Program-made: the position numbers and the translations under genes | Origin: a virus | Length of the DNA stretch: 24,846 nt | Strand: one strand, 5' to 3' | Virus record (IMG/VR): IMGVR_UViG_3300030102_005770 | Coordinates: 10,197-35,042 of that record | In this document: positions 1,546 to 24,750 of the stretch, in pieces | How positions within the stretch are numbered: the first letter of the stretch is position 1 | Layout of the letters: each line of letters opens with the position of its first letter | The notes under the pieces: model-generated | Seen by the model: only the letters and a program-made list of their open reading frames with translations | Databases searched by the model: none | Told to the model about the DNA's origin: nothing

Positions 1546-2685
1546 TTATAGTCTTTTCTTTGCGAATGTTAAACCTTTCTTTAAACCTTTTCCTATATTA
1601 GTTGCACTTCTACCTATAAATGTGTTTGGTACTCCGTACGAACTATCTGCTGTGCCACCTATACGTCCGATAGCACCTGTCAAAATATTAAAACCTTCTT
1701 GACGTAATCCTTCTTTAGATAATTTTTTTGCATTTTTAATTCTATTGGCTGTTGTAATTATTGATGCTAAAGTTATTCCTCTTCTACCTGCACCTAATTG
1801 ACTTCCAATGTAAGTGTTTGGTCCATCACCTGCGCCAAATAAACCTGTAAGTATACCACCGTCACCAAGTAAACTTGTTGAACCACCACCTAATAAACTG
1901 TTAGGTGAAGGAGTTTTATCATAGTGTTCTTCACCAAAGCCTTGTGGTGCTCCATTGGCAGAAACTCTGCCTCTTGAATAAAATACTGCTTCATATTGAA
2001 CAACCATCTGATTTGACATTACATCGCTTTGTTGATTGTTTAATGTGTCATGTTGCCATTGTTGTATCAATGGATTAACAAGTGTATAACAGGTATAAGT
2101 CTTTCTTGCAAGTTGATAAATTTGTATGCTTGTAAAAAAGTTTGCTATAGGAATGTTGTTGTCCAAACCAAATTGTGTTTGATTAAACTTTGCTCCTTCG
2201 TATGCTGAACCTCTGTTGTATGCTCTTTGTGTGGAAGTTGTAGGATTGCCTGCTGTATCTTTACCACCATGGTTACCATCTTTGTAGTAGTATCTATAGT
2301 AAGTTTCCCAAAGTGCAGTGGTTACTCCATAGTTGTCATCATGAAAAACTATTGTAACTGGATCATATGTAATTTTTGTTTGTATGTTTCTTTTCTTATT
2401 ATATTGTTGAACAGTTACCATGTCTACAGAATATTTAGGTAAGTCAACATTTTTAACCAACATATTCAACTCACGTTGGTGATTCTTGATCGGTGGATCA
2501 CTTATTTTTGATACAGATGGATCTAAATTGAATACACAGTGATATAAAAATTTTTGTTTGGGTGCTAAACGGAAACTGTCATCTACATATAATCTGGCAC
2601 CATGAGCAAAATCACCAAGGTTACCTTTAGGATTAAGTACACCTTTTCCTAGATTATCTAAAAAACCTTTGAGTAAATTTGCCAT
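1546..2685 (-). CDS. Baseplate tail-tube cap/initiator, T4 gp48/gp54-like
   Basis: A 379-aa protein. Residues about 42-56 (APKQKFLYHCVFNLDP) and 76-134, including LVKNVDLPKYSVDM, QQYNKKRNIQTKITYDP and IVFHDDN followed by an aromatic run (ALWETYYRYYYKDG), match the tail-tube-like domain shared by T4 gp19, gp48 and gp54. The length is near T4 gp48 (364 aa) and gp54 (320 aa) and far above a tube subunit. In T4 these proteins cap the baseplate hub and start tube polymerisation. The Gly/Ser-rich stretch at about residues 245-300 may be flexible. It is the first gene after the terminator behind gp19 and has its own late-type octamer 6 bases before the ATG. gp48 and gp54 cannot be told apart here. 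Confidence 0.65.
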   Translation of the reverse strand: MANLLKGFLDNLGKGVLNPKGNLGDFAHGARLYVDDSFRLAPKQKFLYHCVFNLDPSVSKISDPPIKNHQRELNMLVKNVDLPKYSVDMVTVQQYNKKRNIQTKITYDPVTIVFHDDNYGVTTALWETYYRYYYKDGNHGGKDTAGNPTTSTQRAYNRGSAYEGAKFNQTQFGLDNNIPIANFFTSIQIYQLARKTYTCYTLVNPLIQQWQHDTLNNQQSDVMSNQMVVQYEAVFYSRGRVSANGAPQGFGEEHYDKTPSPNSLLGGGSTSLLGDGGILTGLFGAGDGPNTYIGSQLGAGRRGITLASIITTANRIKNAKKLSKEGLRQEGFNILTGAIGRIGGTADSSYGVPNTFIGRSATNIGKGLKKGLTFAKKRL

Positions 2686-2691
2686 ATACAG

Positions 2692-2699
2692 TATTTATG
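2692..2699 (-). promoter_or_regulatory. Late-promoter-like octamer CATAAATA before the tube initiator
   Basis: On the minus strand the sequence reads CATAAATA, then six bases, then the ATG. No Shine-Dalgarno fits in the gap. The site follows the terminator at 2721-2751, so the tube-initiator operon appears to be transcribed independently of gp18/gp19. Confidence 0.6.
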
Positions 2700-2720
2700 T
2701 TATGAGAAATGTGGTGTTTT

Positions 2721-2751
2721 AAAAACAAAAAAGGGGCCGAAGCCCCCTTTT
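2721..2751 (-). terminator. Rho-independent terminator after gp19
   Basis: On the minus strand AAAAGGGGGC, a TTCG loop and GCCCC followed by six T form a stem of about ten pairs (one G-T) closed by the very stable cUUCGg tetraloop, with a T run on the 3' side. It begins 24 bases after the gp19 stop. The plus-strand reading would also fold but lacks the UUCG loop and has a shorter T tract, so the minus direction is favoured. Confidence 0.88.
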
Positions 2752-2774
2752 AAATTTATAAATGCAAATAAAAA

Positions 2775-3401
2775 TTACTGACCGCCGCCTGTAATTAGTG
2801 TGTTTACAGTTCTGCCTACAGCAGTTCCAACACCTGTTCCTTGTGGAGTTTGGATAGCATTATCGTATCTCATTTGTAACGTTACTGTTACAGGATCACT
2901 TGTACCATATGCTAACTGATTATAGTTTGCTGACTCAATGTAGCAACCGTATAATTCAAATGTTTCTAAAACACCAACTGCATTAGCACCGTTACCACCA
3001 TCTGTAATTTCTATTCTAGTTACAAATTTGTAATCGCTACCTGAAGCCGCCGCTGATTGTTCAAAGAAATCAAATTGTTTCTGAAGTTGTTCACCAACTA
3101 ATTTCTGTACGTTGTTAGATACATCTTCTCTTAAAGTTAATGTAACTGTTTCCCAAGTGTGTTTACCTGCTAGATAAACTTTTGAGTTGTACACATCTAT
3201 AGTTGTTGTTTCAAACGATAAATTAGGTCTTGTTATATCTACAACCTGCTTTGTTAATTCTGTTGTTGGTGTAGATACACCAAAGTTTTCTAAACTCACT
3301 CTAAAACGATATTGTAGTTTAGGCATTAACAAGCCTTGGTTAGAAGCACTTTGGCTACTATCCAGTGGTACTGTAATTTTTGATAGTGTAGATATACTCA
3401 T
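2775..3401 (-). CDS. gp19: Tail tube protein, T4 gp19-like
   Basis: A 208-aa protein in the position and size range of contractile-tail tube subunits (T4 gp19 is 163 aa). It follows the sheath gene immediately, as in T4. The N-terminal half has the alternating pattern of a tube beta barrel (YRFRVSLENFGV, then KQVVDITRPNLSFETTTIDV and TWETVTLTLREDVSNNV). The C-terminal half has FELYGCYIESANYNQLAYGTSDPVTVTL, the characteristic late strand pair of the family. The tail is Gly/Thr-rich. A GATAAATA octamer lies 15 bases before the ATG and a TAGGAGA Shine-Dalgarno sits about 6-8 bases before it. A strong terminator follows the gene, suiting a highly expressed subunit. Confidence 0.87.
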   Translation of the reverse strand: MSISTLSKITVPLDSSQSASNQGLLMPKLQYRFRVSLENFGVSTPTTELTKQVVDITRPNLSFETTTIDVYNSKVYLAGKHTWETVTLTLREDVSNNVQKLVGEQLQKQFDFFEQSAAASGSDYKFVTRIEITDGGNGANAVGVLETFELYGCYIESANYNQLAYGTSDPVTVTLQMRYDNAIQTPQGTGVGTAVGRTVNTLITGGGQ

Positions 3402-3416
3402 TTGTTTCTCCTATAA

Positions 3417-3424
3417 TATTTATC
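3417..3424 (-). promoter_or_regulatory. Late-promoter-like octamer GATAAATA before gp19
   Basis: On the minus strand GATAAATA lies in the short gp18-gp19 gap. It is followed by TATAGGAGA, which supplies a good Shine-Dalgarno before the gp19 ATG. This gives the tube gene its own late message in addition to read-through from gp18. Confidence 0.65.
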
Positions 3425-3427
3425 TTA

Positions 3428-6400
3428 TTATAATCCTGCTATTTCGCCAGTATTTTTTAATCTCAATGGTACGTAGATAAACTCAACTGCTTTGACTGGT
3501 TCAATCGCAATATCCAAGTACAACTCGTTTCTATCTATTCTAGTTGGAGTGTTGTTTGTTTCGTCACACACAACTAAGAAATCAAAGATTGCTCTGTTAC
3601 CAACTAACTCTAACAATAAACTTTCTGCTTGAGCCTTGATTTCATCTCTTGTGATTTTATCATTTGGTTCAAACACATATGGTCTTGCTAGTTTGTTTAA
3701 TTGACTTCTTAAGTAGATTACAAGTCTTGCAACATTAATTCTGTCCAAAGCACTTGAACCTGCAAATCTAGTTTTTTGTCCATAGTTTACTAAACCTGCA
3801 CCTGTTATGAAAGTAATTGGGTTAACATTGTTTGTATACAATGTATCTCTTTGACCTTCATTTAATGCTGTTGAAACAAATTCACCTTCGCTATTGATAT
3901 AACCAGTTGAACTTGCATTAGTGATACCACCTCTTCTTGTTCCTGCTGGTGCAAACCATGGGAAAGAAACTTGATCGCTTAATGCGATAGTTCTTAACAT
4001 CATGTGTGATGCTGGAACAACAACATTGTTACCGAAGTTATCTGAAGTGAATCCTGATGGATAAAATACTCCTAGATATTCGTTTGTTGTAACTAAACCA
4101 TTGTCGTTATCTTCAACAGCCTTGTTAACGTTCGTTGCCCAGTTTTGTAAACTTGTTGCATCTGGTGTTAATCTCATTGGTGAGTCACCAACTATAAATG
4201 CTGACAAGCCTCTGTCTGCGTTTAGTGAAATCATTTCGCCTATTAGTTCTGGATAACCAGGTGTTGCTAATAAGTTGAATATTCTTGATTCATCATCTCT
4301 AACTTCTTGGTTAGAATTCATCTCTGCTTGTAAACCTTGTACAATAACTTTTCTTTGTGCGTGTCTACCAAATGAACCTGAACCATCTGCTTGGTTAGCC
4401 GATTCAGTTACCCATCTGTGCGGATAGTATGCTGACATACTTGCATCACCCTGTCTAGGGTTTGTTGCTGTTGTGTCAACATGATTTCTAACAAATTTTT
4501 TAACATTAAATCCAGAACGTCTTGTGTTCCATAGCAACATACCTTTTGGATATAATGCTGGATCTGGAGCATCTGCATCTAAGAAGTCACTTGCTAATAA
4601 ATCTGCAATAGTACCTGCTGGAGCCGCCGAAGCCGTTCCACCTGTTGTACCAAATCTTGCATCTGCAAACACAATTCCGTTTTCAGTTGTTTGATCAGTT
4701 TTGTCTACTAATACCCATTTTAGAGTTGAACCATTCCATTTGTAAATTGTTGGATAGTTCTCTAAGTCTGCTGTGCTTATCCATAAGTCACCATCAACAA
4801 GTGCTGATGCATCTGACTGTGTAGTTGGAGCAGTTGCAGAAACTTGTGGACCTGCTGGGTCTGAACCTGTTACTGCTGAATAACCTTTCCATGTTGTACC
4901 ATTGTGATACATTATGTCTACTTCGTCTACAATTGATGAGTACCATAGTTGACCATCATTTGTTAATGAAGTTACTGCTGTTGCACTTGCAGTATAAGTT
5001 AATGCTTTCCAGTTACTTGCTCTGTACTGTTTAGGATTTGTTCCTGAACCTGTTCCTGGCTCATATCCCATGTTAGTTGTTGTTTGTAAGAAACCTGCTT
5101 CTGCTAAAGAGCCGTCTGTGTCAACAAACTTCATCTCACCACCTTTTGTGTGTTCGATAACTATTCTGTTTGATGAGTCAACACTTGCTTTAACGTTTGT
5201 AAATCCAGCGCCGTTGATTTGACCTGCAATTACATCTGCATCTGAAGCCGCACCAGTTAATGTGCTTGTTACTGTGATTGCTGAATTTAATGCTTCTTGA
5301 CCTACAATTGATTCTTGAATAGTAAATGATTTACTACCTGCTGTCATTCCCGTAGATATTGCTGTACCTGTAACTTTTGTTGAACCTGTAGATTCTCTTC
5401 TGAAAATAACATGGTCAACTTCAGTTGTGCCATTGCCATAGTTGATGTATAAATCACCTACTGCCAAACCTGCACCGCCACCTGTCTTATCTAAATTGAA
5501 TAATGCAGATTCGTTGCTAGAATGTAATGGAGCACTTACAGTTTCCCATAATTTTGTTGTGTCGTTCCATTTTTTTACACTCCATTTAGCACCTAAATTA
5601 GGCTCTGTAGTTTTTAACCAAACTGAGCCTGTTGGTCTTGGATTTGAATCTGTTGATTTGAACGCTGGTACTGAAGTGTGTGGAGCAACTGATAATGCTG
5701 GCACATAGTAAGTACCTGCTGTTATACCAAATGATGTGCTTACATCTGCTGTACCATTTGCAATTTGAACTGTGTCGCCTGCCGCACCTGTGTAATATAT
5801 TTCTAAGATACCGCCGTTGTTTCTTGCACTTAATCCTGAAACACCAGCACCTGTGATGTCAGTCACTGCTGAATCAACTGTTGTACCACTGTTTGTGATT
5901 GTTGTGTTTTGTGCATTAATTGTGATTACATAGTTCTGTCCTGAACTTATTGTACCACCTGCTGAACCTTTAATAGTTGGATTAGAACCTACCCAATCCG
6001 CTGTGCCTACTGCTACCCAGGCTCCATCATATTTTTTGTAGAATAAATCGTTGTTTGTGTCAGTGGCATTGATCGCATAATCACCTGCTTGTCCTACTGA
6101 ATTTTTAGGAAAGTTTGCTGAAATTTGATCTGCGTCTGTAATTACTGTTACTGGTTGGTTTGTAAATGATTGACCACCTGTTGTAGTTGCCGCTGAACCA
6201 TTCCATTCAAATACTCCGTATTTTGAATTTACTGTGTCAAACCAGTATGTACCTGCAACTGGATTTGCCGCTGGTGCTGTTGCACTTGCTTCTAATTGAC
6301 CTAAATCAACATTTGCTCTTACAACGAATGCTCTGTTGGCAACACCTAAGAATGAATAAGCCGCTTGTAATCCGTACTCGTTTGTTTCACCACCGTGGAT

Positions 6401-11959: not shown

Positions 11960-12391
11960 ATGAGCAGTAAAATAACCGGGTGTGGAGCACTCTTCTACAC
12001 TTTAGACACACAACGTTTCTTGTTGTTACATAGAACGCAAAGTAAACAAAATCAAGTTTGGGGACTAGTTGGAGGTACAACTACCAATGAAAATTTATGG
12101 GAAGGTCTTCAAAGAGAAATAAAAGAGGAAATTGGTGACCAGAATATTATTAAAAGGATACCAATGGAAACCTTTATCAGTAATGATGAAAACTTTTTGT
12201 ATCACACATACATCTGCGTTGTTGAAAAAGAATTTATTCCAAAATTGAATACAGAACACGATGGCTATGCCTGGGTAAGTTTTGGTCATTGGCCCAAACC
12301 TTTGCATCAAGGATTACGCAAAACTATCCAAAATAAAATGAATCAATTAAAATTGGATACTGTGTTCAAAATGTTAAAATTAATGCAATGA
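11960..12391 (+). CDS. Nudix hydrolase
   Basis: A 143-aa protein if started at the ATG at 11960 (MSSKITGCGALFY). The frame is open upstream into gp15, but a start there would overlap gp15 by over 80 bases and add unrelated sequence. The complete Nudix box is present from Gly38: G-x5-E-x7-REIKEEIGD, with all metal-binding glutamates. Upstream of it is the usual substrate strand (RFLLLHRTQSKQNQVWGLVGG). Nudix enzymes cleave X-diphosphate bonds in nucleotides or nucleotide sugars; the substrate cannot be read from sequence. T4-like marine phages often carry one. Its TGA overlaps the hldE ATG, so it is the first gene of the sugar-nucleotide block, though no clear Shine-Dalgarno is seen. Confidence 0.86.
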   Translation: MSSKITGCGALFYTLDTQRFLLLHRTQSKQNQVWGLVGGTTTNENLWEGLQREIKEEIGDQNIIKRIPMETFISNDENFLYHTYICVVEKEFIPKLNTEHDGYAWVSFGHWPKPLHQGLRKTIQNKMNQLKLDTVFKMLKLMQ

Positions 12392-13647
12392 TTAAAATAA
12401 TTGGTGACGTAATGTTGGACTCCTGGATTGAAGGAGATTGTGATAGAGTCAGTCCAGAAGCACCAGTCATTGTACTCAAAGAGAAAACAAAAGACTTCAA
12501 CGTTGGAGGGGCAGGAAACCTCGCTTTAAACCTGTCAAACTTGGGCACAGACACGTGGCTATATGGTGCCGTGGGCAAAGACATTGCCGGGCACAAAATC
12601 ATTGAAATTTTACTGCAAAATAACATATCGTCACGTGTTTGCCAAGATGCTGAAATGACCACAACCAAAACAAGAATGGTAGGACAAAATGGTCAACATC
12701 TGTTAAGAGTAGACAAAGAACTATCATATACCAAAAGCACAGTTGAAGATGAATTATTGAAAGACCTTGTAGATACTGACACTGTTTTAATCAGCGATTA
12801 CAACAAAGGAGTAATACAAAAAGATACAGTCCAAAAAATTTTAACAAAATGTAAAAATGTTTATGTAGATCCAAAGCAAGGATTCAGTAGATATATTGGA
12901 GCATTTTTAGTAAAACCAAACATGAAAGAATACGAAGCATGGTTTGGCAAATTTAACATTGAAATTGCACAACAAAAATGTGTATTCAATTTGTGGACAT
13001 GGTTAATTGTAACTGATGGTGCTAATGGCATTCATGTGGTTAGCAAAGATTCATACACACATATAAAAGGTGATGCAATTGAAGTATCAGATGTTAGCGG
13101 TGCAGGTGATTCTGTGCTTGCCATAATTGCTCATTACAGTCAATACAAAGATATTCCTAGTGCTTGTGAACTTGCATATAAAGGTGCTCAAAAAATTGTA
13201 CAAAAAAGAGGAGTATCTGTGATTTCTAAAACAGATGTTGAAGACACAGTGGTATGGACAAATGGTGTGTTTGATATATTGCATAAAGGACATTTAGAAT
13301 TATTAAAATTTGCAAAACAACAGGGAGATATTCTGATTGTTGGCATTAATTCTGACTCCAGTGTAAAAAGATTAAAGGGCGATGATAGACCATATAATAA
13401 TGCTCTAATACGTGAACAACAATTATTACAATTACCTTGGGTAGATAAAGTGGTTGTGTTTAATGAAGATACTCCAATAGAAGCAATAAAAAATAATGGA
13501 CCAGACATCATAGTCAAAGGTGGAGATTACACTGTGGCAACAACAGTAGGAAATGAATTAGCAGATGTAAAAATTTTTCCCACAGTACAAGGTTTTTCGA
13601 CATCTAATATAGTGGACAAAGTAAATGAACAAAACAATAAAAAATAA
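12388..13647 (+). CDS. hldE: Bifunctional heptose-7-phosphate kinase / heptose-1-phosphate adenylyltransferase
   Basis: A 419-aa two-domain enzyme (E. coli HldE is 477 aa). The kinase domain, about 1-285, is of the PfkB type: IIGDVMLDSWIEGDCDRVSPEAP, VGGAGNLALNLSNLG, ISDYNKG, VYVDPKQG, LVKPNMKEYEA, and DVSGAGD at 235-241 with catalytic Asp241. The second domain, from about 288, is a HxGH nucleotidyltransferase: TNGVFDILHKGH (His299, His302), VKRLKGDDRPYN, VKGGDY and FSTSNIV, as in bacterial HldE. It would phosphorylate D-glycero-D-manno-heptose 7-phosphate at C1 and later add AMP to heptose 1-phosphate, in the cytoplasm. Both active sites look intact. The ATG overlaps the Nudix stop; the 3' end overlaps the next gene by 23 bases. 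Confidence 0.93.
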   Translation: MIKIIGDVMLDSWIEGDCDRVSPEAPVIVLKEKTKDFNVGGAGNLALNLSNLGTDTWLYGAVGKDIAGHKIIEILLQNNISSRVCQDAEMTTTKTRMVGQNGQHLLRVDKELSYTKSTVEDELLKDLVDTDTVLISDYNKGVIQKDTVQKILTKCKNVYVDPKQGFSRYIGAFLVKPNMKEYEAWFGKFNIEIAQQKCVFNLWTWLIVTDGANGIHVVSKDSYTHIKGDAIEVSDVSGAGDSVLAIIAHYSQYKDIPSACELAYKGAQKIVQKRGVSVISKTDVEDTVVWTNGVFDILHKGHLELLKFAKQQGDILIVGINSDSSVKRLKGDDRPYNNALIREQQLLQLPWVDKVVVFNEDTPIEAIKNNGPDIIVKGGDYTVATTVGNELADVKIFPTVQGFSTSNIVDKVNEQNNKK

Positions 13648-15418: not shown

Positions 15419-18400
15419 TTACGCTTGTGCTTCTGACCAACGCAGTGTTACTGTTGCTGGAACACCACCTGTACCTGCTGTTCTATAAACGTTAATTGCC
15501 AACACGTCTGGACCATTAGGGAACGTACCTCGTCCACCTAGTGTTGTGTTAGTCAATACCTTGATCTTGTCAAGTGCCAAGTTTGCACGTTCTCCCGGTA
15601 CCGCAATGAATGAAAAGATTGTTTCACCTGGTTGTGCATATGGTGGTTGACCAAATACAAACGTGATTGAACTACCCGCGGCAATCGTTCCTGTTGATGT
15701 CTGTGTGAACACCACTCTGTAGAAGTTTGTTGCTCCAAATGTATCTAATGTGTCAACCTGTTGTACTGTTGTACCTGGTGGGAAATTAGTGTAACCTGTG
15801 TCAACTTCTGTACCACTTACTGCACCTGAAGCCTCCCAACTTGCTTGGTCCATGTACAAGAAGTTTGTACCTGTTAGGTCACCACCTAGTGCAAAATCAA
15901 CTGCTTGTCCACCTGATATACCTGTGTGTCTGTTGTTGAATCTTACAAAGTAGTATGAGTTATAGTCAATAATCTGTGTAACAACTGTACCTGCAGGGAA
16001 TTGTCCTGAAGTAACTGACATACCAACTCTTAAACCCTTGCCTTCCCATTGTGCTTCAAGGAAGTATGCATAGTTTCTGTTACCACTCAAGTTGAACCAG
16101 TGGTTTGCTGTTGCAGTCATCTGTGCTTGAGTGTCTGCTGTTTGAGTGGTAGTTGATGCACCACCGTTCCAGTTAACTGAACCACCTGCCGCTATCTGAC
16201 CAAAACTTGGCTGACCACCTTGGGCAACACCCGTTAAGTCTGCCCAACCAATATCTGCTGGATCAATTGGATAGTTTTGTGGATTCAATACACCCTGTAC
16301 GACCAACTGACCTTGATCACCTGATGCCGCTGGGTTAGATGTAATTTCAATACCGTCTAGTAGCAACTGTGCTCTGTTTAATAAGTCTCTGTCTCCCAAG
16401 TCACCTGTCAATGCATTCGATACTGAAGGTGCTAGTCTTAATAGGAATACAGTTTGTCTTGTTGTTGTTAAAGCAAGACCTGTTGCCGCGTAACTGAATA
16501 GGTATCCTCTATCTTCGTCGAAGTTACCATCTGTTAGATATGCTGATCCCCAGTGTGATATGTTTGGAGATGCTGTGTTGGATATCAATACAACACCTGA
16601 ATTTCTAAAGTGTGTACTTGCTGTACCACCTGTGTATGATCTTGTGGCACCTGAAGCAAAGTTTGTTAACTGTGCCGCACGTGTACAACCTGTTAATGTG
16701 TCACCTGACACACCCGTAAATGTAATAACTTCATTATCAATAAACACTGTTCCACCTGTTGTTGGGAAGAATGAAGCGTCAACTAAAGGCACAGTAGTTT
16801 GTACAGCAGTCATGTCTGCTTCTAATCTACCATTTGGACCTTCATTTGTTACTTCATAACGCACAGGTTGGTTACCTGTTCTCATAAATGCTTCTGTGTT
16901 AATGTTTGAATTTCTCATTCTGTGGACAAATATAAACTCACCTTTGTGACCTCTACACATCCAGTCAATAAATCCAGCCCCGTACCATGAAAATTGTATC
17001 CCAATCATCTGCATCTTAGATACGTTCCAATTGTATCCACTTGGACCATTGCCGTCCAATACATCTCTATTGAATTCTGATTGTTTTGCTTTTTTATCAA
17101 CGACTGCACAAATTTTAACACCAGCAGAAGCATTAACACCTCTGTAATCTGGAGTAACGTTCATAGATGTGTTACTTGCCACACCTGCAACCACGTGTGT
17201 CATACCTCTGATTACAACTCTATCACCTGCTTTAAGTTGTTCTCTAAATCTTGTGCCAACACCTGTTACTGTGTTGGAGTCTGGTGTTACAGTTACAGTA
17301 CCAGCCAACTGTCTTGTTGCTGTACGTTGTACTGCGTTTGTTTGTTGTCCATCGTATTCCCAGAAAATTCCGTTTTGATCATCAAATATACCTGATCTTA
17401 CAGTTGCACCATTCCATTGATACAACGATACCTGTGGTTGATCTGTAAATTCTGCTGTTGTGGCTCCTAGAGTGATTTGTGCTATTACAGTCAAAACTCT
17501 TTCACTTGTTACTGAAGCAACTGTGTATGTGCCATCATATCCTGATGTGGCAATACCAACCAATCTGATTTTTGCACCGACCTGTAAATTGTGATCTACA
17601 TCATCAACTGTAACTGTGATTGTTGAACCAGCATTGATACCATCTGCTGTACAATCTAAAATATCATAACTTGGAGCAAATAAGGCACCCGTTGTGTACA
17701 TACAACCTTTACCTGATTGATATCTAATATATTTTTTAGATTGACGTATTGCCTGTGCACCGTGTGCCGGACCACCTGTACCTAATTGTACACCACCATC
17801 AAATGGTCTGTGTACAAAGAATGAATCTGGTCTACCATAAACAAATCCTTGCCATCCTGAGTCTGTAATAGCACCTGGGGATCTAACTTGATATCTTAAT
17901 TGTGTTGCTGATGGAATTGCCGTTGCAAGGAATGGTCCTGATGCAAGAATGTGATTGTTTGCACCATCATCTGATTGTATTACTACAAGGAAAGCATTTC
18001 CTGGAACTAATCCATGAGGTGTTGCAAAGTCTATCTGCATTGTTGCCAACGCACTGTAAGTTATTGTTGATGTTTGTGCTATGTTTGTTGTTGTTGGATC
18101 TGAAATTGTTACCGAACTGAACACTTGTAAGCCTGTACCACCAACTGCTACACCTTCGTGTGTACTTGCAAGTATTCCACCATTTGTGTTTACCTGTTGT
18201 ACTCTTACTGTGATATCATTTGTGATGTTTTGTCCACCTAAATTTGAACCTGAAATTATTAATTTGTCTCCTACAGCATAGTTTGAACCTGTACCAGTTA
18301 CAGTACACTCTGTATATGCTGTGGATGAGTCTGTGTCATTTGTTCTTGTTACACTGTATTGTGCACCAACACCTTGTGGTGTTCTATTTGTGCCTGCAAC

Positions 18401-21400
18401 ATTTAAACTTTGCCCTGTTCCTGTGTTTGCTGTTCCTGATATGTTAGCCAGAGAAGTTACAACACCTGTGCTTTGTGCATCTACTCCACCAACATCAAAT
18501 GTTAAATCATTTGTTGGTGATGCACCAAATAAAGAAGTACCTGGTACTGTGAATGATTGGTTAGCATTGTATCCTGAACCTGCATTGTTTAATGTAACTG
18601 TGTATGTACCACCTGATAGTTCAACATTAACAGTTAAGCCAACACCTGTTCTGTATGCTTTGTTCACGTTTGTAAATGTTTGTGTGTTTACTGCTGTACC
18701 TGTTACGTTGTAAGTATCAACTGCGCCTGCATTCACTCCAGTTACTGTGATAGTAACATCATTTGCTGGTGATGATCCACCAACTTCAGTACCAGCAATA
18801 GTAATTGTGTCGTTCTGTGCAAATCCTGTTCCTGTGTTTGTGAAAGTTGCTGTGTATGTTGCACCTGTTCTGTTTATATCAATCACTGCACTTGCACCTG
18901 ATTGTCCTGTTGACCAAGTTACACCTACATAATCAACGTTTGCATCTGTACCTGTACCTGAAATTGATAAACCTGTAATACCACCCTGTCCATTAACAGA
19001 TGAAACTGAAACATATGCATCGTTCACTGCCGCTGAACCTCCAAGGTCACTGCCACCTACAAGATATAAATCACCTACATTGTAACCTGATGTGCCATCT
19101 ACCGGTGCCGCACCTGCTGAACCTGTGTATGCTTGTGACAATGTACTGATTGGACCTGCACCAGTTCCACCAGTTACCGCTGTTACTGTTACTGTGATAT
19201 CGTGAACACCGTCCTGTCCACCAAATAATGAACCTAATAATAAAATTCCTTGACCTACACCATAATCATCACCTGCCGCATTTAAAGTTACAGTTGCAAC
19301 TGCACCTGAAATTGCAATGTCAAATGTGCCTGATGAACCAACAAGGTTTACACCTGTTGCTAAGGCTGTGTAATCTTTTGTGTCAACTGCTGTACCCGCC
19401 ACAGTGAAAGTTAAAATACCACCGTTGCCATCAACTGAATCTACAGTAATTGACGCATCGTTAGCCGTTGTTGCACCACCTAAGTTTGTTCCCACAAAAG
19501 TTAAAACTTCATTTTGCACATAACCTGAACCAATGCCAGTGATAACTGCTGAATATGTTGTTCCAGTTCTTGTTACATTGAACGCGGCATTAACACCTAC
19601 TAGATTAGAAGTAAATGCTGGTGAAGTGTATGTAACTTCTTGTGGTGGAGCATTACCGCCTGAACTAATTGTTTGGATTTCTCCATTTCCACCTACTGCT
19701 GTTACTCTTATGTTCAAGTGATTTGAAGTAGTACCGCCAAACTCTGAACCTGAGATTCTTATTATATCATTTTGAGCATAGCCAGTGCCTGCATTATTAA
19801 TTGCAACAGTATAGTTTCCACTTGCCGCTGTGACATCAAATGTTGCATTGCCACCACCTGGTGTAGTCTGTGTTCCTGCAATGTTTGTGTATGTAGGTGA
19901 ATTCAATGCAACTGAATATGTTCCATTTGTTTTTGTTACATTCAACTGTGCACCTGTACCTGCATTACCATTGAACGTAGGTGCAACACCTGTTGCTGTA
20001 CCTGTACCAGTAAATGCTGAACCACTTGCAGATACAGTTAAAATTTCTCCACCTGTGTCCACACTTTCTACAAGGACTGTACAATCATTGTCTGGAGTAG
20101 AACCGCCTAAGTCTGTGCCTGACACCACTATTGCGTCACCTACTGTATAGTTTTCACCTGATGCAACTATTGCCGCGGCATAATTTCCGCCTGTTCTTGT
20201 GATGTTAAATCTTGCTAATTGTCCTTGTGGTATATAATTTGTACCTGCTAAATTTGTATATTGTGTTATATCACCTACCAGAGGTTGTGTCAATGGTGCT
20301 GACAATGTTAATGAATTTCCTGCAACGTTTGTGATTGTTACTGCATATCCATCGCCTCTATCAATCACAGAGTTTTGTACAATACCTGCTGAATCCGCCA
20401 CTTGTATTTCTGTAACACCTGAATTGTAATCACCTGTCACAGTTGGAGAAGCCAACGCACCACCTGTTCCATTGATTGCTGTAATTTGTGTACCTGTCTG
20501 GATGCCTGATCCTGATAATGGAGCACCAATTGGTGGAGTTGCTCCACTGTATGGTAAGAAAGTTGTGCCACTTAAAGCCGCAAGTGCTGTTACAATACTA
20601 CCAGATGAACCATTGTCCGCTACACTGAAAGTTGGAAAACCAATCGCCGCACCTGTGTAAAATGCACCTTCTCTTAATTGTGTTGCATTTGTACTGATTG
20701 TTGTTGGATTAACTTGTCCAACTTTGGCTTTTGCGTAATATGTAAATTGTGTTGTGCTGATAACTGTGTTTACTGTAAAAGAACCAGCGGCTCTACTTGC
20801 ACCTTGTACACCATTGTCAAAACCTGTAATTGTTAAAGGTTGTCCTGGTTCAAAACCGTGTGGTCCAACAGTTGTTACTGTGATTAAAGATGAACCAATA
20901 CCTTGTGTACCTGCTGATGCATCTGATGTTACAGTTGCAACGTCAAAGTCTGTGCCTGGTACTTCATAAATTGATGGATAACCTCTTTGTGTAGAAATCG
21001 CACTCCACTTGGTTGGTTGAAGACCATATTCAAAGTCAGCATCAAGCATTGATTCAGGTTGTGCAACCCTCATACGTTCAATTGCATCAGTACCAAAGTC
21101 AAAAGGTCTTACTGTTAATTGATTATCTTCTACAAATATTTGAATTCTATCTGTGCTGTTATCTGCTGATGTATCTACATCTAAAAATAAAGTTGTGATT
21201 GCATCATTTCCATGATATGCTTTTGGAAAATCTGGATCTACATAAGCAGTCGGATTTGATGTATCAGTAGAAAATTCTCTTCTGTATTCTGCAGTTGCAC
21301 CTTTTGATGGATCGTTAAATGTGTACAACACATTGTTATCTGATGCATTTGTAATTAATAATAATCTTTCTAGGTCAATTTTTTCTGGAACTTTAACACT

Positions 21401-22444
21401 TGAAATTCCGTTGTTTATCTGTGCAGGTAAGTTATCTAAACCATTTATAACTACATCTGTGATAATACCAAACAATTCTGTTACACGTGTAGTTGCACCT
21501 GCTTCACCTGGTGTGCCTAAAATTGTTTGTTGTGTCACAACAGGACTTTGTCTTGATGTGAAAGCAACTCCTGGTATCACATAATTGTTTATGATATTTC
21601 TTATTTCATTTTTAACAGCCTCTTCAGGTTGTCTGTCACCACTTAATACTGATACTGTGCCAACCCAGTAAGTTGATGCATTGTATCTTGATTGTTCATT
21701 ACCACCGTATCTTAAATCTTTTAAAATACCATCAATATTGTAACCCATATCTCTTTCACAAAGATATGATTCATATGTAAAGTTTTCAAACACATAAATT
21801 GAACTTACCAATGCTGGTAATGTTAAAATACCATTGTCTATTGCATTTGTGATCACATTGTGATTTGATGTGTAACCTGATATACCACCTGCCTCACCAT
21901 TTGATCCTGTTGTGTTCTGTGATAAACCGTCTGTGTTGATAGAACTGTATGCTATGCCAGGTAAAATATATTGGACAACAATATCTCTTGCTTTTGTAAG
22001 GTAAGCAATTTCTGGATCTCCATCATTTGCTAATTGTAAAACACCGTCAACAAAATATGTTTCTGACTGTGATCTTATATTTTCGTTACCGCCGTATCTT
22101 GTGTCTCTGTATGCCGCACTTACAACTTTACCTACATCTGTTTTAATATCTGCCGCAAGTTTTGTGTAACCTGCAAAAGGTGATACATTGCCGGCAACTT
22201 GAACTGCTACCCATGCCGCCACCTCTGCTTTTACATATTCTAAATTATTTGTAATTCTAGCAGATGTATTAGGGAACAAATCTGCCGCTGTGTCTTGTGC
22301 AATTTTGTAATCGATGAAAGCATTGGATTCATCTTTTAACCATTCTTTGTTAGCATTGATTTGTGCCCAGGCATTAGGATATAGATTACCACTTAATGGA
22401 ATACCTGGTGTAAATTTGTAATTTTCTATTCGTCTTTTTGCCAT
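15419..22444 (-). CDS. Giant repeat-rich virion structural protein (fibre or baseplate-associated)
   Basis: A 2341-aa protein starting MAKRRIENYKFTPGIPLSGN. Residues about 100-342 hold two copies of a helical unit with the motif LRYGGNE/TRYGGNE, about 130 residues apart. Residues about 740-1440 consist of about eight Gly/Thr/Asn-rich beta units, near 88 residues each (core GsGY..gd.i.i.Gt.LGG....ND.tv.V). Then comes a conserved block with DGNGPSGYNWN, QMIGIQFSWYGAGFIDWMCRG and FVHRMRNSNINTEAFMR, familiar from cyanophage virion proteins, and a C-terminus ending TVTLRWSEAQA. No enzyme motif was found. A TTAGGAG ribosome site overlaps the end of the 620-aa gene, so the two are coupled. Its exact virion location is unknown. 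Confidence 0.85.
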   Translation of the reverse strand: MAKRRIENYKFTPGIPLSGNLYPNAWAQINANKEWLKDESNAFIDYKIAQDTAADLFPNTSARITNNLEYVKAEVAAWVAVQVAGNVSPFAGYTKLAADIKTDVGKVVSAAYRDTRYGGNENIRSQSETYFVDGVLQLANDGDPEIAYLTKARDIVVQYILPGIAYSSINTDGLSQNTTGSNGEAGGISGYTSNHNVITNAIDNGILTLPALVSSIYVFENFTYESYLCERDMGYNIDGILKDLRYGGNEQSRYNASTYWVGTVSVLSGDRQPEEAVKNEIRNIINNYVIPGVAFTSRQSPVVTQQTILGTPGEAGATTRVTELFGIITDVVINGLDNLPAQINNGISSVKVPEKIDLERLLLITNASDNNVLYTFNDPSKGATAEYRREFSTDTSNPTAYVDPDFPKAYHGNDAITTLFLDVDTSADNSTDRIQIFVEDNQLTVRPFDFGTDAIERMRVAQPESMLDADFEYGLQPTKWSAISTQRGYPSIYEVPGTDFDVATVTSDASAGTQGIGSSLITVTTVGPHGFEPGQPLTITGFDNGVQGASRAAGSFTVNTVISTTQFTYYAKAKVGQVNPTTISTNATQLREGAFYTGAAIGFPTFSVADNGSSGSIVTALAALSGTTFLPYSGATPPIGAPLSGSGIQTGTQITAINGTGGALASPTVTGDYNSGVTEIQVADSAGIVQNSVIDRGDGYAVTITNVAGNSLTLSAPLTQPLVGDITQYTNLAGTNYIPQGQLARFNITRTGGNYAAAIVASGENYTVGDAIVVSGTDLGGSTPDNDCTVLVESVDTGGEILTVSASGSAFTGTGTATGVAPTFNGNAGTGAQLNVTKTNGTYSVALNSPTYTNIAGTQTTPGGGNATFDVTAASGNYTVAINNAGTGYAQNDIIRISGSEFGGTTSNHLNIRVTAVGGNGEIQTISSGGNAPPQEVTYTSPAFTSNLVGVNAAFNVTRTGTTYSAVITGIGSGYVQNEVLTFVGTNLGGATTANDASITVDSVDGNGGILTFTVAGTAVDTKDYTALATGVNLVGSSGTFDIAISGAVATVTLNAAGDDYGVGQGILLLGSLFGGQDGVHDITVTVTAVTGGTGAGPISTLSQAYTGSAGAAPVDGTSGYNVGDLYLVGGSDLGGSAAVNDAYVSVSSVNGQGGITGLSISGTGTDANVDYVGVTWSTGQSGASAVIDINRTGATYTATFTNTGTGFAQNDTITIAGTEVGGSSPANDVTITVTGVNAGAVDTYNVTGTAVNTQTFTNVNKAYRTGVGLTVNVELSGGTYTVTLNNAGSGYNANQSFTVPGTSLFGASPTNDLTFDVGGVDAQSTGVVTSLANISGTANTGTGQSLNVAGTNRTPQGVGAQYSVTRTNDTDSSTAYTECTVTGTGSNYAVGDKLIISGSNLGGQNITNDITVRVQQVNTNGGILASTHEGVAVGGTGLQVFSSVTISDPTTTNIAQTSTITYSALATMQIDFATPHGLVPGNAFLVVIQSDDGANNHILASGPFLATAIPSATQLRYQVRSPGAITDSGWQGFVYGRPDSFFVHRPFDGGVQLGTGGPAHGAQAIRQSKKYIRYQSGKGCMYTTGALFAPSYDILDCTADGINAGSTITVTVDDVDHNLQVGAKIRLVGIATSGYDGTYTVASVTSERVLTVIAQITLGATTAEFTDQPQVSLYQWNGATVRSGIFDDQNGIFWEYDGQQTNAVQRTATRQLAGTVTVTPDSNTVTGVGTRFREQLKAGDRVVIRGMTHVVAGVASNTSMNVTPDYRGVNASAGVKICAVVDKKAKQSEFNRDVLDGNGPSGYNWNVSKMQMIGIQFSWYGAGFIDWMCRGHKGEFIFVHRMRNSNINTEAFMRTGNQPVRYEVTNEGPNGRLEADMTAVQTTVPLVDASFFPTTGGTVFIDNEVITFTGVSGDTLTGCTRAAQLTNFASGATRSYTGGTASTHFRNSGVVLISNTASPNISHWGSAYLTDGNFDEDRGYLFSYAATGLALTTTRQTVFLLRLAPSVSNALTGDLGDRDLLNRAQLLLDGIEITSNPAASGDQGQLVVQGVLNPQNYPIDPADIGWADLTGVAQGGQPSFGQIAAGGSVNWNGGASTTTQTADTQAQMTATANHWFNLSGNRNYAYFLEAQWEGKGLRVGMSVTSGQFPAGTVVTQIIDYNSYYFVRFNNRHTGISGGQAVDFALGGDLTGTNFLYMDQASWEASGAVSGTEVDTGYTNFPPGTTVQQVDTLDTFGATNFYRVVFTQTSTGTIAAGSSITFVFGQPPYAQPGETIFSFIAVPGERANLALDKIKVLTNTTLGGRGTFPNGPDVLAINVYRTAGTGGVPATVTLRWSEAQA
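18110..20222. repeat. Array of about eight diverged protein-level repeats inside the giant gene
   Basis: The repeats are in the encoded protein (residues about 741-1445) and are diverged at DNA level. Each unit of about 85-90 residues runs: FnVtrtGxtYtvt, GsGYaxxD, Gt-LGG with an ND dipeptide, VxxVxxxGGI, then GtA. Copies have, for example, FNVTRTGTTYSAV / VIDINRTGATYTAT and GTNLGGATTANDASITV / GTEVGGSSPANDVTITV. One copy (near residue 1110) lacks its first half. Confidence 0.8.
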
Positions 22445-22451
22445 GCTTTTT

Positions 22452-24314
22452 TTATACTCCTAACGCAATCGCTAACACTGTGGCTGTGTTATCAACGTAT
22501 TGCTTCTTAGTTACGTCGTTAGCACTGCTTGGGTCGTTTGTTACAGTCGCACCTGTAAAAGCCGCCGAAGCCGCAGTGGTTAAACCTATTGTAGTACTAT
22601 TTAACGTTCCTTGGGCAGAAACAATATTTGAAAAGGTTCCATTTCTTGGAATTACTCCCCCAATAGTCACGTTATCTACAGTGCCTAAATCAATTGGTCT
22701 TATTGATAAATTTCCACCTGCTTGTGGACTGATAGTTACATCAGCATTTGGTGTTAAACTAACATTATTTGTTGCTGTCAACTGCTGAGCATTGACGTTC
22801 ATGTTGCTTATAGTACCAACTGCTTCTGGTTGTATAGTAACTAGACCTGTTCCTGTTGGTTTAATCTCAACATTTGCATTAATGCCATTGTTTAAAAAAT
22901 TTCCTGTGTTTAAAATTGAACTGAATACACCTGCTCCAATCAATGAAGGTTGAGCAACAGTGATTATGCCTGCTGGTATTCCGTCTGCGTCACCATAAAA
23001 TAAAGAATCTGGAGCATCAACAGGAACTTCATAAGTTAATGTTCCTGATTGTTTACCTTGTGCTTCCGCACCTGTTAGAGTAGTTGAAACTGGAATATCT
23101 ATATAAGATGCAACTGCAATTTGTGTTGTGATTTGACTTCTTATATTGTTTTGATAGTTGGCAAAATTGTTTGCAACATCAAGATAACTGAACAATCTGA
23201 TATTTCCTGATTCATATGAAATTAATTCACTGCTATCAGGTTGCTGAACACCTGTTGTTTCTTTTGTATCAATAGTCCCATCTGCCTGTGCCATTGCATA
23301 GATAGTATCTACCGCACTGTATAAAACTTGATTCTGATATGTACCACCGTTGTAAACATAATTCAATTCATTTTTACCATTAAACATTGTAACTTTTTTA
23401 TCTGACAATGGTGTAACTGCTGACCAATTTACTATTGTGGAATTATCTGTATTCTGTGGGTCTAAAGTATAATTGTAAAAAGTCGGTCCTGCTGGTAAGT
23501 ATTGATCTTCATGCAACAAACCATTATAAGTTATAATGTGTTTTACAGATGCGTTCTGAGTGTAGTTTGCATATTGTAATGCCAACTGTGCACCATTACC
23601 AAAACCAACTATTGCAATTTCTCTTGTGTCAACATTATCGTAACCATCTAAACTTGCTATGATTGAATCTATGAATGCAACATCATTTGCTTTACTTGTT
23701 TGATAACCAACGTTCCATTCGTTGCCATAACCTTGTGGAGCAATTAAAATTCTGTCGTTTACCCAATTTATTTTTGCAATACCTTGTCCTTGTGTTTCAT
23801 TTGTGTCATGAAGCACAATTAAAACTGGAATTTTTTTACCTGCTAAGGCTGTGCCTGTTGTGTCTGGAACAAGTATCTGTGCTGTTCTGTCATAACCACT
23901 TTGTTGTTGTGCCCATGTTTGTGAAACAGTTATTGAACCTGATGCAAGTGTGCTTCCAGTAACAACATTTTGATGACTTAAACCTGTGCTGTACAAATTA
24001 CCTGGAGTGTTTGCATCGTTAACATCGGGTTGGAAAATATTGAAAGTTAAACTTGATAGATTTAATACAAAATTATAAGTTTTACCACGCTCAAGTGTGA
24101 TGTTAGGATTGTTTCCTGAAAGTGGATTACCTTCTTTAAGCCATGTGAACTCACCCGCAGTTTCATTTGTATTGAAATCTGGTGATGGTGGAACCACTGG
24201 TGGAGTGTATGTGTTTGTAATTGTTCTTACAACAACATTTCCAGCATTATCAACTGTGAATCCTGGACTTTTAAATCCGTATTCCGCTTCAAACTGTTTT
24301 AATACAACTGCCAT
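22452..24314 (-). CDS. Fibre-like virion protein with an inserted, apparently inactive esterase-like domain
   Basis: A 620-aa protein. Residues about 55-135 and 411-460 look like two halves of a cupredoxin-like beta domain common in marine phage proteins (NPNITLERGKTYNFVLNL; SGTLTYEVPVDAPDSLFYG). Between them, about 140-400, lies an alpha/beta-hydrolase-like region resembling PHB-depolymerase/LpqC esterases: IPVLIVLHD, WNVGYQTSKANDVAFIDSI, REIAIVGFGNGAQLALQYA. The nucleophile position in the G-x-S-x-G elbow is Gly239, and no convincing acid or histidine is seen. From about 470 a repetitive fibre-like region (VSLTPNADVTISPQ..., NGTFSNIVSA) ends with NDVTKKQYVDNT, typical of tail-fibre ends. 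It starts one base after the 144-aa gene stop and is followed by the giant gene. Confidence 0.78.
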   Translation of the reverse strand: MAVVLKQFEAEYGFKSPGFTVDNAGNVVVRTITNTYTPPVVPPSPDFNTNETAGEFTWLKEGNPLSGNNPNITLERGKTYNFVLNLSSLTFNIFQPDVNDANTPGNLYSTGLSHQNVVTGSTLASGSITVSQTWAQQQSGYDRTAQILVPDTTGTALAGKKIPVLIVLHDTNETQGQGIAKINWVNDRILIAPQGYGNEWNVGYQTSKANDVAFIDSIIASLDGYDNVDTREIAIVGFGNGAQLALQYANYTQNASVKHIITYNGLLHEDQYLPAGPTFYNYTLDPQNTDNSTIVNWSAVTPLSDKKVTMFNGKNELNYVYNGGTYQNQVLYSAVDTIYAMAQADGTIDTKETTGVQQPDSSELISYESGNIRLFSYLDVANNFANYQNNIRSQITTQIAVASYIDIPVSTTLTGAEAQGKQSGTLTYEVPVDAPDSLFYGDADGIPAGIITVAQPSLIGAGVFSSILNTGNFLNNGINANVEIKPTGTGLVTIQPEAVGTISNMNVNAQQLTATNNVSLTPNADVTISPQAGGNLSIRPIDLGTVDNVTIGGVIPRNGTFSNIVSAQGTLNSTTIGLTTAASAAFTGATVTNDPSSANDVTKKQYVDNTATVLAIALGV

Positions 24315-24315
24315 C

Positions 24316-24750
24316 TTAACTTGTTACCTGTTGTCCACCTACTAATGCGTTTTGTGTTGCAAAATATGATGCTCCAAAAATCACTTTACTGCCTGTGTAT
24401 TTTTCTGTTTGTGATTTATCTGCTGGTTCAACAGTTACTTTCACAAGTGAATTATCCACAGTGCTGTTTAATTTTATTAGATTGTTACCTAAATTTGATC
24501 TGCCATATATTGTTAGACTAGATTGATTAGGACTTGCCGCTACTAGCACTTTTAGTATTTCTTTGTTGTTTGTATCGTAATCTACACTGATTGTATATTC
24601 TGCAGACGTGAATGTATTCACGTGCCATTGGTCTAAAACTAACCCTTCTTCAACAACTAGATATGGCCCATTATATGAAAAATTTAAACCATTCTTCAAT
24701 AATAGAGTGTTTCTCTCTCCTTTGCCAAAAAATCTTGATACATCAAACAT
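24316..24750 (-). CDS. Small virion structural protein preceding the fibre genes
   Basis: A 144-aa soluble beta-rich protein starting MFDVSRFFGKGERNTLLLKNG. The stretch YLVVEEGLVLDQWHVNTFTSAEYTISVDYDTNNKE looks familiar from cyanophage structural clusters, but I cannot give a T4 gene number. No membrane segment and no catalytic motif. An AAGGAAAT ribosome site lies about 6 bases before the ATG, and a GGTAAATA late-type octamer 23 bases before it. It heads the minus-strand run with the 620-aa and 2341-aa genes, spaced by 1 and 7 bases, which supports a role in the same appendage or its attachment to the baseplate. Confidence 0.72.
   Translation of the reverse strand: MFDVSRFFGKGERNTLLLKNGLNFSYNGPYLVVEEGLVLDQWHVNTFTSAEYTISVDYDTNNKEILKVLVAASPNQSSLTIYGRSNLGNNLIKLNSTVDNSLVKVTVEPADKSQTEKYTGSKVIFGASYFATQNALVGGQQVTS

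Follow-up and report, generated by a model that had tools for sequence, protein, structure and literature searches.

The protein described here probably presents, on a phage tail, a module for binding or display that does not hydrolyse; the module would derive from a Ser-Asp-His esterase and appears to be inserted in a cupredoxin-like domain. The window, meaning the whole stretch of 24,846 nucleotides that was analysed, corresponds to positions 10197-35042 of a 35,042-base IMG/VR virus record (IMGVR_UViG_3300030102_005770), and the features discussed are collected in Table 1. In the proposed history, an ancestral CE1/PHB-depolymerase-like esterase with a Ser-Asp-His triad would have been presented to the host envelope by a tail protein. 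The lineage would then have lost the nucleophile (to Gly), the His and the oxyanion glycines with the fold kept, and would have gained clade-specific invariant residues, several of them near the old active site; the same fold may now be displayed on the tail without chemistry, for binding or display. Homology-based annotation would label this protein an esterase or depolymerase.

Table 1. Features of the fibre locus, in window coordinates.
Feature	Position	Strand	Remarks
Probable tail-fibre protein carrying the domain	22452..24314	(-)	620 aa; one conserved architecture in 24 further IMG/VR loci
Cupredoxin-like fibre domain, first half	23946..24170	(-)	Residues 49-123; NPNITLERGKTYNF...LYSTGLSH
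Alpha/beta-hydrolase (CE1 / PHB-depolymerase-like) domain	23115..23942	(-)	Residues ~125-400; AF2, fold searches, PHROG 2576, NCBIfam
His169, oxyanion-loop 'LHG' motif	23808..23810	(-)	Sole invariant His of the domain
Gly239 (GGT) at nucleophile Ser position	23598..23600	(-)	'acc' on the + strand; GFGNG = residues 237-241
Glu316 (GKNE) at acid position	23367..23369	(-)	Sister lineages mostly have D; L049-L051 have N
Asn382 at catalytic His position	23169..23171	(-)	His in at least 90% of live relatives
Cupredoxin-like fibre domain, second half	22956..23105	(-)	Residues 404-453; SGTLTYEVPVDAPDSLFYGDADG; lacks the Cu ligands C, H and M seen in relatives
C-terminal repetitive fibre-like region	22455..22955	(-)	Ends ...NDVTKKQYVDNTATVLAIALGV; strongly conserved across the clade
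Neighbouring 144-aa cadherin-like beta-sandwich protein	24316..24750	(-)	Gene order shared with L042

Assignment of the fold was carried out with profile searches and structure prediction. The PHROG 2576 profile matched residues 125-391 (E 1.3e-21), and the best NCBIfam model was extracellular PHA depolymerase type 1 (NF050058; E 2.8e-5, 23.8 bits against a cut-off of 150). Pfam gave sub-threshold matches only (Abhydrolase_2 and DLH), and a single-sequence phmmer search of the PDB gave no match, 9j07 being reached by profiles only. An AF2 model of residues 117-410, built on 44 phage sequences, had a pLDDT of 89.7 and a pTM of 0.91. Its top structural relative by VIA-align was the acetyl xylan esterase AoAXEB (9j07; Z 25.4, rmsd 2.8, 247 residues), feruloyl esterases were among the best relatives, the PHB depolymerases 8daj and 9byu gave Z ~21 by the same method, and LpqC (3d0k) was Foldseek hit 7. 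As modelled, the domain has its nearest relatives among acetyl-xylan/feruloyl (CE1-like) esterases and extracellular PHB depolymerases. It shares the whole-domain fold with the former (9j07, 8jh8, 5x6s) but is without their nucleophile Ser and His and is only ~15% identical; with the type 1 depolymerases and LpqC it shares fold and order, yet it lies far under the family cut-off and is without the triad. The initial annotation had read the residue order as that of PHB-depolymerase/LpqC-type hydrolases and had proposed superposition on them as a check, and the predicted structure agrees with that reading. Of the domain span that it gave, residues ~140-400 (23115-23897), the end holds and the start moves to about residue 125.

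Comparison of the active site with the esterases was based on fold-level alignments and sequence columns. GFGNG replaces G-x-S-x-G as first described, and both the codon and its coordinates were confirmed. The catalytic His and the acid had likewise been described as seemingly missing: the His is indeed gone, replaced by Asn, whereas the acid seems only partly lost, being Asp in sister lineages. The motif aligned at the nucleophile in L049-L051 is GYGVG, and GIANG in those sequences is a separate GxxNG stretch. The glycines of the HGxGG oxyanion loop that follow His169 are degraded in the window clade. A hidden alternative triad was ruled out, with no conserved replacement for the catalytic His found: the domain has three His (169, 259 and 268), of which only H169 is invariant in the clade, and the whole protein has no Cys. 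By sequence, the domain appears catalytically dead, and some unusual residual activity would be compatible with the same residues.

Intact relatives were found both in phages and in cells. Cyanophage and most IMG/VR relatives retain G-x-S-N-G, N-D-x-x-x-P-Y and [GA]-H, and so keep the Ser-Asp-His that the initial annotation had suggested looking for in phage homologues. Ser (GxSNG) was carried by 53/54 IMG/VR loci in one sample, Asp and His were kept in nearly all sampled distant phage relatives, and Ser was also present in cellular Bacteroidota and Planctomycetota relatives, with G-x-S-N-G retained in marine bacterial ones. Two MAG contigs with phage members of this family, L199 (PAOW01000006.1, 'Euryarchaeota') and L183 (PBPT01000016.1, 'Neomarinimicrobiota'), were placed inside or beside phage clades and were taken as probably misbinned phage contigs and not as cellular relatives. 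At the sequence level, a profile built from the family, most of whose members carry Ser, finds 9j07 (E 3e-13) and brings S, D and H into line with those of the esterase. Structure searches with a model of the Ser-bearing phage relative L104 led to identical PDB neighbours (Z 24.5 against 9j07). PHROG 2576 itself consists of uncharacterised cyanophage proteins (S-RIM14, S-ShM2, ACG-2014d/h) with a homologous domain, encoded in tail/baseplate gene clusters; unlike the window protein, these retain Ser-Asp-His, and their N-terminal domains are different ones (YHYH, subtilase-like). A literature search, with most subscription papers outside its reach, returned no report of this domain.

The sequences on either side of the hydrolase appear to belong together, as parts of a single beta domain. 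When joined, they matched one uninterrupted domain in P-TIM68 (E 1e-4; the N half by itself gave 0.09). Weaker matches were to P-SSM2 and further cyanophage proteins annotated as tail fibre or baseplate wedge tail fibre connector; the beta-domain pattern NPxIxLxRGxxYxF ... VPxDAPxxLxY is present in the joined halves when aligned with P-TIM68. By sequence, the hydrolase appears to be inserted inside a cupredoxin-like domain. In P-TIM68, P-SSM2 and ACG-2014h this domain carries HPFxI and YYxCQxHSxM, a plastocyanin-type copper ligand set (H-C-H-M), and the ACG-2014h domain matches Pfam Copper-bind at E 1e-3, slightly under the cut-off. None of the four type-1 copper ligands is found in the window clade by alignment, and since copper ligands and catalytic residues are both gone, two functional sites would have been lost in one polypeptide. 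Besides the window, the loci noted for this cupredoxin-like domain of marine phage fibre proteins are L001, L181 and L182; in cyanophages its set of type-1 copper ligands appears complete.

A role in a fibre, as the initial annotation had it, or in the tail is supported indirectly by the tail fibre and baseplate connector homologues of the cupredoxin-like domain, by the neighbouring genes and by the fibre-like sequence at the C-terminus, which as a query by itself gave no match in the phage collection. The cyanophage hydrolase homologues adjoin gp9 baseplate genes. Tail sheath and tail tube genes mark a contractile-tailed phage, and the window tail sheath is nearest to those of the jumbo phages Atu_ph07 and PA5oct (~41% identity); the source is taken to be a marine jumbo-type myovirus. 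Adjoining the fibre gene is a 2341-aa repetitive, probably structural protein (15419-22444, (-)) with many 'GxGYxxGDxIxIxGxxLGG'-type repeats. Elsewhere in the window, a single frame (12388-13647, (+)) matches phrog_8133, its C-terminus matching a heptose kinase/adenylyltransferase-type family; it adjoins nucleotide-sugar and NUDIX genes, a possible sugar-nucleotide pathway. In L042 a NolO-like carbamoyltransferase gene (2302-4131), flanked by two phrog_8954 copies, lies directly upstream of the fibre locus.

Conservation and selection were assessed in the same-architecture set, which comprised 25 sequences including the window (17 IMG/VR loci with full-length matches and 7 more divergent ones). 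Gly239 was present in 25/25 of these, 46-98% identical in the domain, and was spelled by three synonymous codons (GGT, GGC and GGA); apart from the two closest pairs, dN/dS in the domain lay between 0.05 and 0.22. The window clade forms one side of a 100/100-supported branch of ~1.29-1.4 changes per site in a protein tree without a sure root, and Ser is taken as the ancestral state because the wider relatives carry it. Loss of Ser in the clade is most simply read as a single event, and the long, fully supported branch suggests that this change was old and was followed by a long shift and then by constraint. The part of the earlier proposal in which an enzyme has become a non-enzyme is well supported by the existence of Ser-Asp-His relatives, the clade-wide loss, the purifying selection and the lack of a conserved replacement His; the ester- or acyl-bearing surface glycan that it named as a possible ligand is a guess.

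Among the positions that became fixed in the clade are Q132, R143, Q243, Q247, Y248, L266, W297 and L317, and several of these sit on the helix directly after the nucleophile elbow. Around the old active site, Q243, Q247, Y248, Y204, W297 and L317 are invariant and clade-specific, and a WN...D loop (W200, N201, D211) is common to the window clade and the Ser-bearing group. A point against the binding or display reading is that W200, N201, D211, H169 and the Asp at 316 of sister lineages could equally have been retained for a structural role. The main rival to a binding or display role, rather unlikely in our estimate, gives the domain nothing but a structural part in the fibre, as a ligand-free spacer or assembly platform with a vestigial pocket and a fold kept for stability alone. 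The position inside another fibre domain that has also lost its metal site suits such a spacer, and purifying selection, with an omega similar to that of neighbouring regions of the protein, might act on folding alone; a need for stability by itself, however, gives no reason to expect the polar and aromatic residues that are invariant in this clade only to cluster just behind the old nucleophile and in the WN loop. Continued catalysis by way of a different nucleophile or an activated water, with H169, D211 or D/E316 as examples of where this might occur, was considered very doubtful. The invariance of H169 and D211 and an acidic residue at the acid position in most of the clade would fit it, but the one invariant His is the ancient oxyanion-loop residue, Cys is absent, L049-L051 have Asn at the acid position, and the glycines of the oxyanion loop have degenerated. 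Sequencing error or a decaying pseudogene, to which the single base between GGT and a Ser codon (AGT) might point, has a negligible chance, being contradicted by the identical Gly in all 25 sequences from separate metagenomes with differing codons, the intact frame and a dN/dS well below 1.

Replacement of the nucleophile was not confined to this clade. In L138-L143, Ser has changed to Gly (GEGNGG) inside a Ser-bearing clade with acid and His retained, and in L052-L057 (IMG/VR 3300032130_000005 and relatives) the position holds Asp (GFDTG, codon GAT), again with acid and His retained; L058, the sister to these, carries Ser. Judging from the aligned residues, the nucleophile is replaced at least twice more in the family outside the window clade, giving at least three independent replacements. 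An Asp nucleophile with intact acid and His resembles the haloalkane dehalogenase arrangement, and L052-L057 may represent a switch towards Asp-nucleophile chemistry or one more case of a disarmed site.

Precedents exist for dead alpha/beta hydrolases acting in adhesion or as scaffolds: neuroligins are without the active-site Ser (PMC8526735), and no enzymatic role belongs to the alpha/beta hydrolases gliotactin, thyroglobulin and NDRG (PMC7022630). Neuroligins, gliotactin, NDRG and DPP6/DPPX reuse a dead hydrolase fold for binding, as is proposed here, and the window domain shares with such non-catalytic proteins a fold without nucleophile under purifying selection. The neuroligin-type proteins are of animals and belong to other hydrolase subfamilies, and their likeness to the window domain is at the level of the fold only.

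For the binding or display module preferred here, a wider reading is offered tentatively: by replacing the nucleophile, marine phages might time and again have made virion esterases into modules that bind a receptor and do not cut it. In this jumbo-phage lineage the host-recognition module might then be a CE1-type esterase and a surrounding cupredoxin domain, both disarmed, that reversibly binds an ester-decorated envelope glycan in place of cleaving it. It is usual to keep tail-spike enzymes apart from fibres that only bind. With both live and dead versions of what would be one virion esterase, this family may offer a natural series for the passage from cutting a receptor to holding it.
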